From Pseudomonadota bacterium (GTDB taxonomy: Bacteria > Pseudomonadota > Alphaproteobacteria > JAGOMX01): DNA of 36,526 nt. Shown one piece after another: positions 610-6,410 of this stretch; position 1 is the first letter of the stretch, and each line of letters starts with the position of its first letter. The notes under the pieces were generated by a model. It was not told where the DNA came from. It did not search any database and saw only the letters and a list, made by a program, of their open reading frames with translations. A program made the position numbers and the translations under genes. The stretch lies in contig JBDLIP010000004.1 of NCBI GenBank assembly GCA_039714795.1, positions 1-36,526 of the forward strand, read 5' to 3'.

Positions 610-3600
610 CTAACGCCGCATTACACGCACCCACAACCATTGCCAAATGACTCGGTACAGCCGGTCGTATTCTTGTTTCCAAACCCGGTAATTCTCGCGA
701 GCCATTAAAGCGCAGGGTGTCACAACCAGGGTCAATGTGGAAGCAAACAACACCCCAAATACGATGGCTGTGGCTAGCTGTACCCACCATTGGGTTGCTG
801 GAGACCCATAAGTGATGCTGCGGTTTAGAAAGTCGATGTTGAGCCCCAACATGATTGGTAGCAATCCTAAAATAGTTGTTAGTTTGGTGAGGATAACTGG
901 CCTTAGGCGCTGAGCACCGGTCAGCAAAATTGCATCTCGCACATTTTTCATGCGCACTTTTAGATGATCAAAGGTATCAAGCAGAATGATGTTATTGCTA
1001 ACGATAATTCCAGAAAGGGCAATAATACCAATGCCGCCCATGACGATACTATAAGTTTGGCGCATGATGATTAAGCCTATGAAGACTCCAAACGTGGACA
1101 TCACCACTGAACTTAAAATCAATACCATACTGAAGAAACTGTTAAACTGAGTAACCAAGATAATGGCAATGGAAAAAATGGCGATAGCAAAAGCTTTGAT
1201 CAAAAAGCTTCCTGTCTCTTTTTTGTCTTCTTCTTCTCCCTTAAATGCAACATTGACTGCTGGGTCGATTTGGGTTTTGCGGATCCAAGCTGCAATCTCT
1301 TGAACCTTATCATCAGTGAGTACGCCAGGGGCGACATCTGCTTCAACCGAAATAGAGCGCTTACTGTTGGTGCGGTTTAAAACACTCACTCTTGATTGGG
1401 GTGCAAGAGTCATAAATGTGCTAATGGGGACTAAGCCTTTGCTGGTTTTCACCCGGAGTTTTTTAAGCTGCTCGAGAGTGCGAAATTCTTTAGGAAACCG
1501 CACTACAATATCCACTTCATCTCGGCTGTCGTCGGGCCTAAATGAGTCAATTTTTAGGCCTGCGGTAATCAACTGAATTGTTTGACCAATTAGGGTCACA
1601 TCAGCTCCAAACTTGGCCGCCTGTGCGCGATCGATTTTGATTTCCCAATCAATTCCCGGAATGGATCCTGTGTCATCGACATTGATGAGGCCGGGTAGGG
1701 AATCCACATATGTCTTAAGCTTTTTAACTTCAATATCTAACTTTTCTGGAAAACGCGAAGAGAGTTGGATTTGAATATTTTTATCAGCAGGGGGGCCTGG
1801 TTTGTTCTTGCGAATCTCGACAATAATTCCGGGGATCGAACCCACGCGCTCATTGACTTCTTGAATAATTTTATCTGCTGTGCGGCGCTGTTGCCAATCG
1901 ACAAACTCGAGAGTGATTGTCCCAATTACATCCTGTGGCAAGGGGGGGCCTGTGCGTCCGACTTGTCGGCCCACATCCGAATTGGTGTAAATGGATTGCA
2001 GTTCTTGCATATCCAGCAATTTATTCTCGACTTTTTGCACCAGCCTATCTCGCTCAGCAACAGATAGGTTTCCTCTGGCATGAACCATAACCAGTGCTGT
2101 TGGTGGTTCGATATTGGGAAAGAACTCGATACCTTTACCAAATATTTTGTATAAAATGAAAACACTGACAAGAGCTGCCAAAGCTCCTAGCAAAATGGTT
2201 TTAGGCCTGTCGAGGGCGTAATCTAAGGTACGTACATACCAACCCGTTAAGCCTTGCTGGAATTCGGATAAACCTGACATCTTAGGTTTATTCGGCTTTT
2301 CTTCTGCCTGAGCCCGGCCAATGAGACTCCCGATGGTGGGGACAAAAACCAGCGCCATCAGTATAGAAGCGGTTAAGGTTGCAATTAATGTGAGCGGCAG
2401 AAATCTCATGAATTTACCGATAACACCGGGCCAGAACAAAAGCGGGAAAAACACGACTAGGATTGTTGTTATAGAGGTAATTACCGGCCATGCCATACGT
2501 TTGGCCGCTTGGGCGTAAGCCTCTTTTCGACCAGCACCTTCTGCCATATGCCGATCAGCATATTCAACCACAATAATTGCCCCATCAACCAACATGCCAA
2601 CGGCTAAAATTAGGCTAAACAGCACCACTGTATTGAGCGTGAGTCCTAACAACTGGAGGGTGAAAATCCCCATCAGAAATGATCCAGGAACCGCCAATCC
2701 CACAAGCCAAGCTGAGCTCCAACCCAGTGATCGAACAATCACCAACATGACCAGTAGTACTGCAATAATCAAGCTATTTTGTAAATCAGCGAGCATATCC
2801 CGGATACGCCCAGATTCGTCTTGGGAAAAATTTACCTGAATTTGGGCTGGCCAATTTTCTTTCTCTTCAGCAACGACTTTGCGAACCCCCTCGATGGTTT
2901 CGATAATGTTTTGACCTGTGCGTTTAATTACTTCAAGGGCAACTGCCGGCGTACCTCGATCTCTGGCATAGCCGGTCGGATCTTTAAATGTGCGGCGCAG
3001 ATCAGCAACATCGGAAAATTTTACAACCGCGTCGTCCTCACTCTTGAGCGGAAGATCCAGTAAATCTTGGCTGGTTTGTAAAAGCCCGGGCACCTTAATG
3101 GCCATCCGACCCAAGCCGGTGTCTAAGGTACCGGCCGAAATCAGCTGATTATTTTTGCGCACAAAGCCAATGGTTTCTTCAAATGAAAATCCATACCCTT
3201 CCAGCCGAATGGGATCAATTAGGATTTCCACCACTTCATCCCGGTCACCAACCACATTGACTTGGAGCACGCTGGGAACATTCTCTTCGATTTCATCTCG
3301 TAAATCTCGCGCCAATTTGTAAAGACTACGCTGTGGTACTTGGCCTGACAGACTAATCACAAGAACGGGAAACAAAGAAACATTGACCTCATGAATTGTA
3401 GGATCGTCTGTATCTGTGGGTAGATCTGGCTTGGCTTCATCTACCTTGTCTCTGACGTCAGCTTTGGCTTTATCAGCATTAAATCCAGCTATGAACTCAA
3501 GCAGGATATTGCCACCTCCCTCATGTGCGGTGGCTTTCATCTCTTTAACACCTTCGATGCCGCGCAATTTTTGCTCCAGAGGTCGAATCAGAAGCCTTTC

Positions 3601-3780
3601 GGCATCTTCAGGGGATATTCCCTCATGATGCAATGAGATATAAATAATAGGAATCTGCACATCCGGCATTGATTCTTTGGGAATGCTGATATAAGCACTC
3701 CAGCCAGCGATAATCAAAAGAACAAAAACAGAGACAACGGTGCGAGAGTACCGCAGTGCCAGATCAATCAGGGTGTTCAT
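610..3780 (-). CDS. RND-family efflux transporter permease with an altered proton-relay motif
   Basis: 1056 residues, full length for an RND permease. An N-terminal membrane segment (about residues 10-32) and a first periplasmic loop with SIPKESMPDVQIP and ISPEDAERLLIRPLE are typical. A membrane block lies near residues 335-490, a second periplasmic loop follows, and a final membrane block lies near 865-1030. It would extrude substrates across the inner membrane using proton flow, with the adaptor encoded directly upstream and an outer-membrane channel encoded elsewhere. The 4-bp overlap with the adaptor gene (ATGA) indicates translational coupling. Oddity: the usual transmembrane-4 pair VDDA is VDGA (residues 398-401), and the usual transmembrane-10 Lys (xKNxIL) is Ser in IIVSNN (about residue 928). 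Substrate unknown. No clear terminator follows. Confidence 0.93.
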   Translation of the reverse strand: MNTLIDLALRYSRTVVSVFVLLIIAGWSAYISIPKESMPDVQIPIIYISLHHEGISPEDAERLLIRPLEQKLRGIEGVKEMKATAHEGGGNILLEFIAGFNADKAKADVRDKVDEAKPDLPTDTDDPTIHEVNVSLFPVLVISLSGQVPQRSLYKLARDLRDEIEENVPSVLQVNVVGDRDEVVEILIDPIRLEGYGFSFEETIGFVRKNNQLISAGTLDTGLGRMAIKVPGLLQTSQDLLDLPLKSEDDAVVKFSDVADLRRTFKDPTGYARDRGTPAVALEVIKRTGQNIIETIEGVRKVVAEEKENWPAQIQVNFSQDESGRIRDMLADLQNSLIIAVLLVMLVIVRSLGWSSAWLVGLAVPGSFLMGIFTLQLLGLTLNTVVLFSLILAVGMLVDGAIIVVEYADRHMAEGAGRKEAYAQAAKRMAWPVITSITTILVVFFPLLFWPGVIGKFMRFLPLTLIATLTASILMALVFVPTIGSLIGRAQAEEKPNKPKMSGLSEFQQGLTGWYVRTLDYALDRPKTILLGALAALVSVFILYKIFGKGIEFFPNIEPPTALVMVHARGNLSVAERDRLVQKVENKLLDMQELQSIYTNSDVGRQVGRTGPPLPQDVIGTITLEFVDWQQRRTADKIIQEVNERVGSIPGIIVEIRKNKPGPPADKNIQIQLSSRFPEKLDIEVKKLKTYVDSLPGLINVDDTGSIPGIDWEIKIDRAQAAKFGADVTLIGQTIQLITAGLKIDSFRPDDSRDEVDIVVRFPKEFRTLEQLKKLRVKTSKGLVPISTFMTLAPQSRVSVLNRTNSKRSISVEADVAPGVLTDDKVQEIAAWIRKTQIDPAVNVAFKGEEEDKKETGSFLIKAFAIAIFSIAIILVTQFNSFFSMVLILSSVVMSTFGVFIGLIIMRQTYSIVMGGIGIIALSGIIVSNNIILLDTFDHLKVRMKNVRDAILLTGAQRLRPVILTKLTTILGLLPIMLGLNIDFLNRSITYGSPATQWWVQLATAIVFGVLFASTLTLVVTPCALMARENYRVWKQEYDRLYRVIWQWLWVRVMRR

Positions 3781-4829
3781 TCTGGTACCGCAACAACCTT
3801 TTGCCCATGGGTGATAAAGTCATGGCCTGTGGTCACCAGCCTTATGCTTTCTGGCAATCCGGTGACCCAGAGCCCATCGCCATCATGACCGATCACCTTA
3901 ATTGGGTGGAATTGCACAAGGGATTGAGCATTCACGCTTTTAACTCCCACTTGTCCGGCATCATTAAGCGAGAGAATCGCAGGAGATACCTTATGTGCTA
4001 ACACCTGTTTGACAGGGATATAAACTTCAGCAGTCAAGCCATCGCGGATTTGATAGCCGGGATTTGCAAAAGCTAGTTCTACCGGGAAAGTGCGCGTGCC
4101 TGCTTCAGCCACAGACCCCACGAATGTCACCACGCCTTTAACTGTTTCTCCTGAGGCCAGACGAATGCGACTAGTGGTCTCCAGGTTGATGTGGCCTACG
4201 TCTTGTTCGGAAACACTGGCTACAACTTTTAACGGGTCGAGCTCCACGACCATCGCCAACTTGTCGCCGACGATGACATAATCGCCGACTTCAACGTAGC
4301 GATCGGCTAGAATGCCTGAAAAAGGCGCTAGGATTTTGGTGTTTTTTAAATCGGTACGAATACGGGCCAGCTCAGCTTCTGCTTCCCGCAATTGAGCTTC
4401 TGCTTGTGCCAGCTGTGTTTTTGAGCGAAATTTTTTGATTCCTAACTTTGTCGCTGCATCGAATTCGAGTTGGCGTTGATCTAAAAGCGCTTGTCCTTGT
4501 TTGAGAAGCTCAAGGCGTTCTTCTGGATCAATCAATAAAATTTCTTGGCTTTGGATCACTCTCGCACCCTTCATTACCTCAATGGAGGCTACCGGTCCAG
4601 GGACTTCAGCACGCAAGGTTACCGAGCGATTGGCCTGAGTGTGACCGCGCAACACCAGTTCTGATACTCTCTGTACGGCTTTTGAAGAGCGTACCGCAAC
4701 ACGCACGAGAGCGGGAGCCTTGGTTTGTTCAGTATGTCTACCTTTGAATAAACCGCTGGCAAACCACAACAAGAGCAGTAATCCAATGCTGCCACCAATG
4801 ATGTAACGTTGGTTGAGTTTGTGGATCAT
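3777..4829 (-). CDS. RND efflux periplasmic adaptor (membrane fusion protein)
   Basis: 350 residues. An N-terminal hydrophobic anchor (IIGGSIGLLLLLWFASGLF, about residues 10-28) is followed by the biotinyl-lipoyl half-motifs. A long alpha-helical hairpin rich in Glu, Ala, Gln and Arg follows (about 105-165), then KILAPFSGILADRYVEVGDY (about 167-186), the hallmark of the HlyD/AcrA family. It bridges the inner-membrane pump to an outer-membrane channel. Its gene is first in the operon and overlaps the pump gene by 4 bp. The start at 4829 lies about 57 nt downstream of the predicted start of transcription in palindrome 1, so the operon is probably controlled through the divergent palindrome region. 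The family is certain; the substrate is not visible. Confidence 0.92.
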   Translation of the reverse strand: MIHKLNQRYIIGGSIGLLLLLWFASGLFKGRHTEQTKAPALVRVAVRSSKAVQRVSELVLRGHTQANRSVTLRAEVPGPVASIEVMKGARVIQSQEILLIDPEERLELLKQGQALLDQRQLEFDAATKLGIKKFRSKTQLAQAEAQLREAEAELARIRTDLKNTKILAPFSGILADRYVEVGDYVIVGDKLAMVVELDPLKVVASVSEQDVGHINLETTSRIRLASGETVKGVVTFVGSVAEAGTRTFPVELAFANPGYQIRDGLTAEVYIPVKQVLAHKVSPAILSLNDAGQVGVKSVNAQSLVQFHPIKVIGHDGDGLWVTGLPESIRLVTTGHDFITHGQKVVAVPE

Positions 4830-4868: not shown

Positions 4869-4904
4869 CTCGCACATAATCGACATATGTCAATTATGTG
4901 CGAG
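4869..4904. repeat. palindrome 1 of a pair, 36 bp with one mismatch
   Basis: The arms run outward from a central CATATG (4884-4889). The left arm is CTCGCACATAATCGACAT and the right arm is the reverse complement of CTCGCACATAATTGACAT, so 17 of 18 positions match. It covers the -10 box of the minus-strand promoter for the efflux operon. Its partner lies 53 bp away, centre to centre. Confidence 0.9.
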
Positions 4905-4921
4905 TTGCAATATCGTTTCAA
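4893..4921 (-). promoter_or_regulatory. predicted promoter of the RND efflux operon
   Basis: On the minus strand, -35 TTGAAA (4921-4916), a 17-nt spacer and -10 CATAAT (4898-4893). The -10 lies inside the right arm of palindrome 1, and transcription would begin near its centre. This is a mirror image of the plus-strand promoter described next. Predicted from hexamer match and spacing only. Confidence 0.5.
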
Positions 4922-4933
4922 TTCGCACATAAT
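4905..4933 (+). promoter_or_regulatory. predicted promoter of the AAA-ATPase gene
   Basis: -35 TTGCAA (4905-4910), a 17-nt spacer and -10 CATAAT (4928-4933). The -10 lies inside the left arm of palindrome 2, and the start would fall near that palindrome's centre. The 18-nt gap between the palindromes thus holds both -35 boxes of two divergent promoters. Predicted from hexamers and spacing. Confidence 0.5.
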
Positions 4934-4956
4934 TGACATATGTCAATTATGTGCGA
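4923..4956. repeat. palindrome 2 of a pair, 34 bp and perfect
   Basis: Arms TCGCACATAATTGACAT and its exact reverse complement meet at CATATG (4937-4942). The right end (GCGAGG, 4953-4958) supplies the Shine-Dalgarno GAGG for the ATPase start at 4965. A transcript starting upstream of the palindrome could therefore hide the ribosome site in a hairpin, whereas one starting at its centre would not. Confidence 0.92.
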
Positions 4957-4964
4957 GGTTAATA

Positions 4965-6410
4965 ATGCAAACATTCGTGGGACGGCAAAGAGAGCTGCAG
5001 AGATTAAAAGATCTTCAGGATGCTCCGCGCCCTATTCTTGCAGTTATAAAAGGGAGAAGACGAATTGGAAAAAGCAGTCTAGCACAAGAGTTTGGCAAAG
5101 ATTATACATTTTTTGAATTTTCAGGGGTTGCACCTAATGATAATGTCAATGCTCAAGATCAATTGGATGAGTTTGCAAGCCAACTATGCACTCGTCTGAA
5201 CCTCTCTCCAGTGACTTTTAAAAATTGGAATGACGCTTTTGCTTTCCTCACCCAGTATCTTACACAAGATCCAACGGTACTCCTCTTTGACGAAATTTCA
5301 TGGATGGGCTCTAAGGACCCTACTTTTGTCCCCAGGATCAAGAATTGGTGGGATATGACATTACAAGCCTATCCCCATCTTACTCTTATTCTTTGCGGTT
5401 CTATCTCTTCATGGATTGAAAAGAATATTCTGAACAGTACAGCACTATTTGGAAGAATTTCTCTTGAAATTGATCTTGATGAGCTTTCCTTTGCCAATTC
5501 ACGCAGGCTTTTGCAACAAATAGGTGCTCAATATTCACACGAAGAAATTCTCAAAATTCTATCCATTACAGGCGGAGTTCCGTGGTATCTTGAACAAATC
5601 GATCCTAAATTCACTGCAAATGAGAATATAAAACGATTATGCTTTGAACCAGGAGGCTTGTTCATTCGTGAATTTAATCGAATTTTTCATGACCTTTTTG
5701 AGCCGAGAAACCCAATTTATAAAGAAATTGTCCACCATCTTGCAGGTGGAATGAAGACCCTTACACAATTACGCAGTGGCACCCACTATTCCCATAGCGG
5801 TTCTTTTAGTGAATATCTTAAGATTTTATGCTCAGCAGGTTACATCACAGAACATCAAAATTGGTCTTTAAAAACAGGCAGCATGGGTAGACGCAATTTA
5901 TACCGCTTAAGCGATAACTATATACGCTTTTACATAAAATATATTGAACCCAATCTTGCTAAAATTAACAGTCAACGTTTCAAACACACATCCCTAAGCA
6001 CCTTACCTGGATGGGAAACCATGATGGGACTTCAGGTGGAAAATCTTATTCTCAAAAACCGACACCTTATTCTGAAAAAGTTGGGAATACCGCCACACGA
6101 TATTGTCAATGACAATCCTTATATCCAACATCCTACAAAGAGACAGCGAGGGTGCCAAATTGACTACTTGATACAAACCCACACCAACAATCTATACGTC
6201 TGCGAATTTAAATTTCGACGCAAAGAAATCAAAAGTGATGTCATCGATAGTATGCAGGAAAAAATCAAGCGATTTGTTGTACCCAAAGGCTTTGCTATCA
6301 GCCCCGTACTTATCCACTCCGGAGGAGTCTCTGATGCTGTTTATGATCGACGATACTTTTACCGCATTATTGATATAACTGATTTTTGGGAGCCTTGTTC
6401 GGCTGGCTGA
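4965..6410 (+). CDS. AAA ATPase with C-terminal PD-(D/E)XK-like domain (archaeal-type ATPase, DUF234 class)
   Basis: 481 residues from the ATG at 4965. I chose this over an upstream frame because FVGRQREL is the usual beginning of the family and GAGG lies 6 nt before it. Domains: Walker A GRRRIGKSSL (about 30-39), Walker B VLLFDEISWM (about 105-114), a sensor strand LILCGSISSW, and GGVPWYL typical of the STAND-related MNS clade. A winged-helix region follows, then a C-terminal D-X13-E-F-K pattern (QIDYLI ... CEFKF, about 398-416) matching the PD-(D/E)XK nuclease core of DUF234 proteins. Its function is unknown in general; defence, selfish or toxin-like roles have been suggested for relatives. 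It looks more AT-rich than its neighbours and sits alone between chromosomal genes, which suggests horizontal acquisition. The last five residues (EPCSAG tail) may be read-through into older flanking DNA. Confidence 0.88.
   Translation: MQTFVGRQRELQRLKDLQDAPRPILAVIKGRRRIGKSSLAQEFGKDYTFFEFSGVAPNDNVNAQDQLDEFASQLCTRLNLSPVTFKNWNDAFAFLTQYLTQDPTVLLFDEISWMGSKDPTFVPRIKNWWDMTLQAYPHLTLILCGSISSWIEKNILNSTALFGRISLEIDLDELSFANSRRLLQQIGAQYSHEEILKILSITGGVPWYLEQIDPKFTANENIKRLCFEPGGLFIREFNRIFHDLFEPRNPIYKEIVHHLAGGMKTLTQLRSGTHYSHSGSFSEYLKILCSAGYITEHQNWSLKTGSMGRRNLYRLSDNYIRFYIKYIEPNLAKINSQRFKHTSLSTLPGWETMMGLQVENLILKNRHLILKKLGIPPHDIVNDNPYIQHPTKRQRGCQIDYLIQTHTNNLYVCEFKFRRKEIKSDVIDSMQEKIKRFVVPKGFAISPVLIHSGGVSDAVYDRRYFYRIIDITDFWEPCSAG

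Follow-up and report, generated by a model that had tools for sequence, protein, structure and literature searches.

The closest described relatives of the ATPase studied here belong to PDC-S27 and PDC-S01, PADLOC phage defence candidates in which an ATPase is fused to a PD-(D/E)XK nuclease and which are predictions only (PMC12988326). Among predicted defences in prokaryotes, PDC-S01 has been reported to rank fourth in frequency. The PDC-S27/PDC-S01 literature that we found describes neither promoter palindromes nor autoregulation, and nothing linking DUF234, DUF4143, COG1672, PDC-S01 or PDC-S27 with palindromes, repeats or self-regulation came up in the literature searched, which took in few subscription journals and no preprints. 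Operators of this kind are described in other systems. In the AbiE type IV toxin-antitoxin system, the winged-helix protein AbiEi (Rv2827c) binds inverted repeats over its own promoter and represses itself, and AbiEi-related proteins do not bind one another's repeats (PMC7319586). By analogy, PDC-S27 would combine a winged-helix protein, several inverted repeats at its own promoter and the logic of autorepression, with binding as the predicted element. AbiEi, however, is an antitoxin that stands apart from its toxin, a nucleotidyltransferase, whereas the putative reader, the ATPase and the nuclease of PDC-S27 form one chain; the AbiE repeats are 23 bp long with gaps of 3–13 bp, in contrast to the 54-bp array of PDC-S27. 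The WYL regulators BrxR and CapW repress defence genes and have gene-specific inverted repeats within 200 bp upstream (PMC9122601). They share these gene-specific upstream repeats with PDC-S27 but are stand-alone wHTH-WYL proteins without ATPase or nuclease, with short 11-bp arms and no reported fixed array period. The archaeal Orc1/Cdc6 and STAND proteins (APAF1/NLR, Avs), whose structures are matched by our ATPase model, likewise carry a winged helix behind an AAA+ core; they differ in binding replication origins or sensing ligands. We know of no relation between Orc1/Cdc6 or STAND ATPases and promoter arrays. Defence genes with autoregulatory operators are known; what is new, as far as we checked, is an array that is family-wide, private to each gene and of fixed period.

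The window, the whole 36,526-nt stretch of DNA that was analysed, carries an ATPase-nuclease gene at 4965–6410 on the plus strand, encoding a protein of 481 aa. Its divergent neighbour codes for an HlyD-type membrane fusion protein (3777–4829, minus strand), beyond which lies the gene of an RND efflux pump of the AcrB family (610–3780, minus strand). The neighbours of the ATPase in the window were these efflux genes and FtsJ, and an adjacent DUF1814 nucleotidyltransferase toxin of the AbiE type was not among them. The protein matched the PADLOC PDC-S27 profile PDLC04984 over nearly its full length (E=5.4e-88, residues 1–464 on profile positions 1–462 of 474), and PF01637 (ATPase_2) was found above the cut-off. 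At E<=0.01 the window protein had no PF03008 (DUF234) match; 7/44 family members matched this profile. In the AF2 model (pLDDT 92.7), an AAA+ domain is followed by a winged helix and, at the C-terminus, by a nuclease fold. The solved folds closest to the model were 2fna and 2qen, followed by plant NLRs, APAF1, ORC/Cdc6 and Avs3. The Walker A motif GRRRIGKS (residues 30–37; 5052–5075, plus strand) is invariant or near-invariant in the family alignment, and the PD-(D/E)XK nuclease residues E359, D400, E414 and K416 (6039–6212, plus strand) are invariant. The winged helix, our proposed DNA reader, was placed by the model at residues 249–315 (5709–5909, plus strand), with helices at 249–259, 266–273 and 280–290 and a wing at 294–315. 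The fusion of an ATPase domain to a PD-(D/E)XK nuclease, which defines the family, was recognized from ATPase_2, Walker A, the invariant nuclease residues and the fold. By its sequence, the window ATPase is a member of PDC-S27 (COG1672-type), an AAA+/STAND ATPase with a winged helix and a PD-(D/E)XK nuclease, and has a putative anti-phage function.

A reading of the same DNA made from the sequence alone (hereafter the sequence-only reading) had described two palindromes between the efflux operon and the ATPase gene, one of 36 bp with one mismatch and one of 34 bp without any, with centres 53 bp apart. This proved exact to the base. The first inverted repeat (P1, 4869–4904; CTCGCACATAATCGACATATGTCAATTATGTGCGAG) has one mismatched pair, which leaves 34/36 positions self-complementary, and the second (P2, 4923–4956) is perfect and longer than any other perfect palindrome of the window, the runner-up being 20 bp. 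The centres lie at 4886.5 and 4939.5, and the gap between the repeats is 18 bp. The promoter boxes described there were also present on both strands, namely TTGCAA and TTGAAA in the gap, each with CATAAT 17 nt away inside a palindrome arm. The ATPase promoter has its −35-like TTGCAA at 4905–4910 and its −10-like CATAAT at 4928–4933, in the left arm of P2, which spans the −10 box and the predicted transcription start. The possible divergent (efflux) promoter on the minus strand consists of a −35-like TTGAAA at 4916–4921 (TTTCAA on the plus strand), not general in the family, and a −10-like CATAAT at 4893–4898 (ATTATG on the plus strand) in the right arm of P1. A Shine-Dalgarno-like AGG (4956–4958, plus strand) overlaps the end of P2, again as described, and is followed by the ATG start codon at 4965. 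The inverted-repeat score of the window was 18, and a score of 13 or more was reached in 0.000 of the dinucleotide shuffles of such regions. Apart from itself, the palindrome region had a single match in the 1.86-Mb genome, namely the promoter of a paralogous ATPase (contig C99), in which the same twin layout is built of other arms (TCACATAATC...ATTTATGTGA) around the boxes TTGACA-17-CATAAT. A third paralogue, on contig C96, has the same layout; all three place the −35 box between the repeats and the −10 box within the left arm of repeat 2.

The survey of relatives covered about 200 of them, in the genome of the window and 49 others, and most had sites of this type. Nine more full or partial relatives were found in the same genome, and others in genomes of 1.0–2.6 Mb labelled TM6, Rickettsiaceae, Anoxychlamydiales, Alphaproteobacteria and Verrucomicrobia. 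Tandem inverted repeats stood upstream of nearly all of their start codons, with entirely different arms (TCGCACATAA, TTGCACCAAA, CCTGCTCATAA, TTTACACATAA, ACGACGATAAA, ATTCCGCTGAG and others). Nearly all clear PDC-S27 arrays consisted of two to four inverted repeats with a period of ~54 bp, or about five helical turns, over the gene's own promoter. A strong inverted repeat (score >=9 within the last 150 bp before the start) preceded 75% of 65 PDC-S27 genes vs 17% in 165 control genes taken from the same loci (p=7e-18) and 8% in shuffles; over the two families, PDC-S27 and PDC-S01, the shuffles gave 5–8%. Where a PDC-S27 upstream region contained a strong direct repeat, its period was 50–57 bp in 44/44 cases, with the mode at 53–55. 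A held-out set of 86 genes in 37 other genomes, taken from the phylum of one of the Anoxychlamydiales genomes, showed the inverted repeat in 85% and the 50–57 bp period in 43/45. Some control genes also had periods of 53–56 bp; we think, the cases not having been checked singly, that these are divergent from ATPases and share the promoter region with them. Concerning the possibility, allowed for in the sequence-only reading, that the palindromes occur at random and never beside such ATPases, the sites were found to recur before ATPase genes in many genomes. The palindromes appear to belong to the ATPase gene and not to a general link with efflux. The ~54-bp type of layout was also seen in records from a Desulfosarcina plasmid, Emticicia, Butyrivibrio, Wolbachia phage WO and Mesorhizobium. 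No recognizable array was found before some members (TM6 L010, G302:C87 and a Halobacterium plasmid), and IMG/VR viral contigs contained no close relatives. The position of the array relative to the promoter varies, with a single site upstream of the −35 box in Verrucomicrobia, and whole 54-bp units are tandemly duplicated in several loci (G306:C21, G306:C50, G307:C50). In Wolbachia phage WO (L193, MN180249.1), two ACCGCGGTATATAATGCTAACATACGCCGCGGT units with a period of 56 bp, each with TATAAT inside, lie ~30–100 bp before the DUF234 ATPase gene.

The COG1373/DUF4143 genes of the window's genome are of the PDC-S01 type (AAA_14+DUF4143) as described in PMC12988326, with 22 matches in this genome and 35 in the 1.5-Mb genome G306. 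A strong inverted repeat was present before 61% of 56 PDC-S01 genes vs 17% of controls (p=6e-11). The periods in this family were 23 bp (direct iterons, e.g. AAAATCGCGG, in one clade), 32–34, 46 and 61–62 bp, and the promoter overlapped the repeat in 28 cases vs 17.1 expected. In the clade TRRVVLLSGARQCGKTT (L097, L103, L109, L143, L160), direct iterons AAAATCGCGG or AAAACGCGG with a period of 23 or 46 bp replace the palindromes and are common to three genomes.

The question of what reads the arrays was approached by comparing repeats with proteins. Between genomes, repeat similarity followed protein identity (rho 0.27, beyond all 300 permutations), whereas the masked flanks did not (rho 0.03). 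The correlation was found again in the held-out set (rho 0.22, p=0.001), where it vanished at <50% protein identity. For PDC-S01 it was weak with the first metric (p=0.12), and reached p=0.002 with the centre-aligned metric. The arms were unlike among paralogues of one genome and alike for similar proteins of different genomes; for example, G306:C21 and G303:C196 have CCTGCTCA arms and the helix sequence PSSG.LS in common, and Emticicia (Bacteroidota) and Butyrivibrio (Bacillota) have TTGGCGGAATA arms in common. Judged from the DNA, the repeat is private to each gene and appears to track the protein and not the host genome. One host regulator cannot explain the arrays because paralogues in one genome have different arms. 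When overall identity was removed, the first metric placed the strongest additional signal of both families in the winged helix, at residues 266–295 in PDC-S27 and at residues 219–248 in the L003 protein (p=0.0005 pointwise; 0.04 and 0.03 family-wise). With this metric, the held-out genes did not reproduce the 266–295 window (p=0.11, and p=0.48 when inter-genome pairs of <60% identity were taken); their peak fell at 206–255. With the centre-aligned metric, the whole winged helix (250–315) gave p=0.004 in the held-out and pooled sets and was not significant in the exploratory set alone (p=0.2); in the pooled set, residues 61–95 scored equally. Since the exact 30-residue window failed to replicate in the held-out set, we make only a moderate claim on the specificity of the winged helix. 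The fold, the HTH_5/HTH_20 Pfam matches in some family members and the partial correlation indicate that the winged helix is likely the reader of the array. The sequence-only reading had named the ATPase with its winged-helix region as one candidate regulator; it is now the best candidate binder, the binding itself being predicted. Part of the correlation could come from the promoter and gene being inherited together.

We consider it probable that the two palindromes serve the ATPase gene as its operator array, and that each ATPase binds its own array through the winged helix and is its own repressor. What the sequences show is the array with its period, its overlap with the promoter, its gene-specificity and its co-variation with the protein; binding, repression and release on infection are the steps that we infer. 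The ATPase would bind its private array as an oligomer, for which the fixed five-turn period suggests binding on one face of the helix, and would repress its own transcription by covering the −35/−10 region. Such self-repression may keep a potentially dangerous nuclease scarce, and private arrays would prevent cross-regulation among the many paralogues of one cell. An activating event, such as phage or plasmid invasion or an ATP-driven rearrangement, would release the ATPase. The outward efflux promoter of the window would be co-repressed merely through its chance position. If this operator model is correct, the promoter of each PDC-S27/PDC-S01 gene reveals a predicted cognate DNA site for its ATPase, so that DNA binding and autoregulation can be tested directly. 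Private arrays would also account for the coexistence of dozens of paralogues in a small genome, and the matched winged helices and palindromes would form a natural set for learning rules of DNA recognition.

A rather unlikely extension is that the arrays are assembly platforms, on which ordered ATPase-nuclease oligomers form on their private 54-bp array. Site occupancy would then act as the sensor, and loss of the array would release or activate the nuclease; the sensed event may be, e.g., phage take-over of transcription or breakdown of host DNA. PDC-S27 and PDC-S01 would in that case have a common mechanism of 'self-site guarding'.

It is unlikely that the arrangement is a joint switch, in which a dimeric or tetrameric regulator on both palindromes controls the efflux operon together with the ATPase, as the sequence-only reading had proposed. 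The exact, symmetric −35/−10 pairs on both strands of the window and its high minus-strand promoter score (7.5) agree with such a switch; however, a perfect palindrome automatically gives CATAAT on both strands. In 151 homologous upstream regions, good promoters were found on the ATPase strand in 46% vs 10% of shuffles (p=3e-25), and on the opposite strand in 14% vs 10%, with no enrichment (p=0.84). Because the enrichment is on the ATPase strand only, it is in general the ATPase promoter that the array covers, and a divergent efflux promoter is specific to this locus. The overlap of a site with its own promoter, a feature of autoregulatory operators, was found in the window and in the plus-strand enrichment. 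Promoter and repeat overlapped in 31 PDC-S27 regions vs 30.6 expected, as the arrays cover most of the region. Close orthologues of the efflux operon were missing in two family-level relatives, in which the best relatives had 21–23% identity, and ATPase homologues elsewhere had different neighbours each time, with efflux genes outside the pattern. The palindromes remain probable protein-binding sites over a promoter, whereas shared control of efflux found no support as the point of the arrangement.

It is very unlikely that the palindromes are sites at which the ATPase-nuclease cuts or joins DNA as part of a TnsA/TnsC-like or homing-type selfish element. Many divergent copies (about 10 PDC-S27 and 22 PDC-S01 in 1.86 Mb), a patchy distribution among intracellular bacteria of several phyla and the fusion of the ATPase to a nuclease with a complete active site would fit mobility, but the repeats overlap the promoter and stand 5′ of the gene only, with no 3′ copy above chance in 26/28 loci. 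A transposon or homing element should have related terminal repeats flanking the gene, and these were missing in the same proportion. The suggestion that the sites are carried by the ATPase-nuclease cassette is correct in the sense that they go with the gene, but they do not mark the ends of an element. It is highly improbable that the repeats act as hairpins of the 5′ leader RNA, as an attenuator or stability element. The inverted repeats do lie close to start codons, and mismatches in PDC-S01 have a slight G-T excess (13 vs 7.2 expected), but PDC-S27 mismatches have none (16 vs 15.0 expected), which speaks against an RNA hairpin; moreover, with the −10 box inside repeat 2 a transcript would start within that repeat, and the constant ~54-bp helical spacing fits DNA. 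Finally, functionless passengers linked to the gene and kept symmetric by gene conversion would suit the tandem duplication of whole 54-bp units, but are hardly credible when one period is maintained in unrelated sequences across several phyla, all arms change symmetrically between paralogues and the flanks do not track the protein.

Several further observations were made during the survey. On contig C99 (L003/L007), a PDC-S27 and a PDC-S01 gene stand back to back; the intergenic region that they share contains separate repeats for the two genes, unrelated to each other. G306, an Alphaproteobacteria MAG, presents an extreme expansion, with about 35 DUF4143 ATPase and 15 PDC-S27 matches in 1.5 Mb, which by a rough estimate amount to several percent of the genome. 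The genome of the window also contains a MITE-like interspersed repeat of ~100 bp (GCTGAATCAAACTGTTGGTTTTCTGA...) in at least 40 copies of about 80–88% identity, at C12:8522-8632, on C13, C105 and C27 and at other sites, several of them just upstream of ATPase genes.
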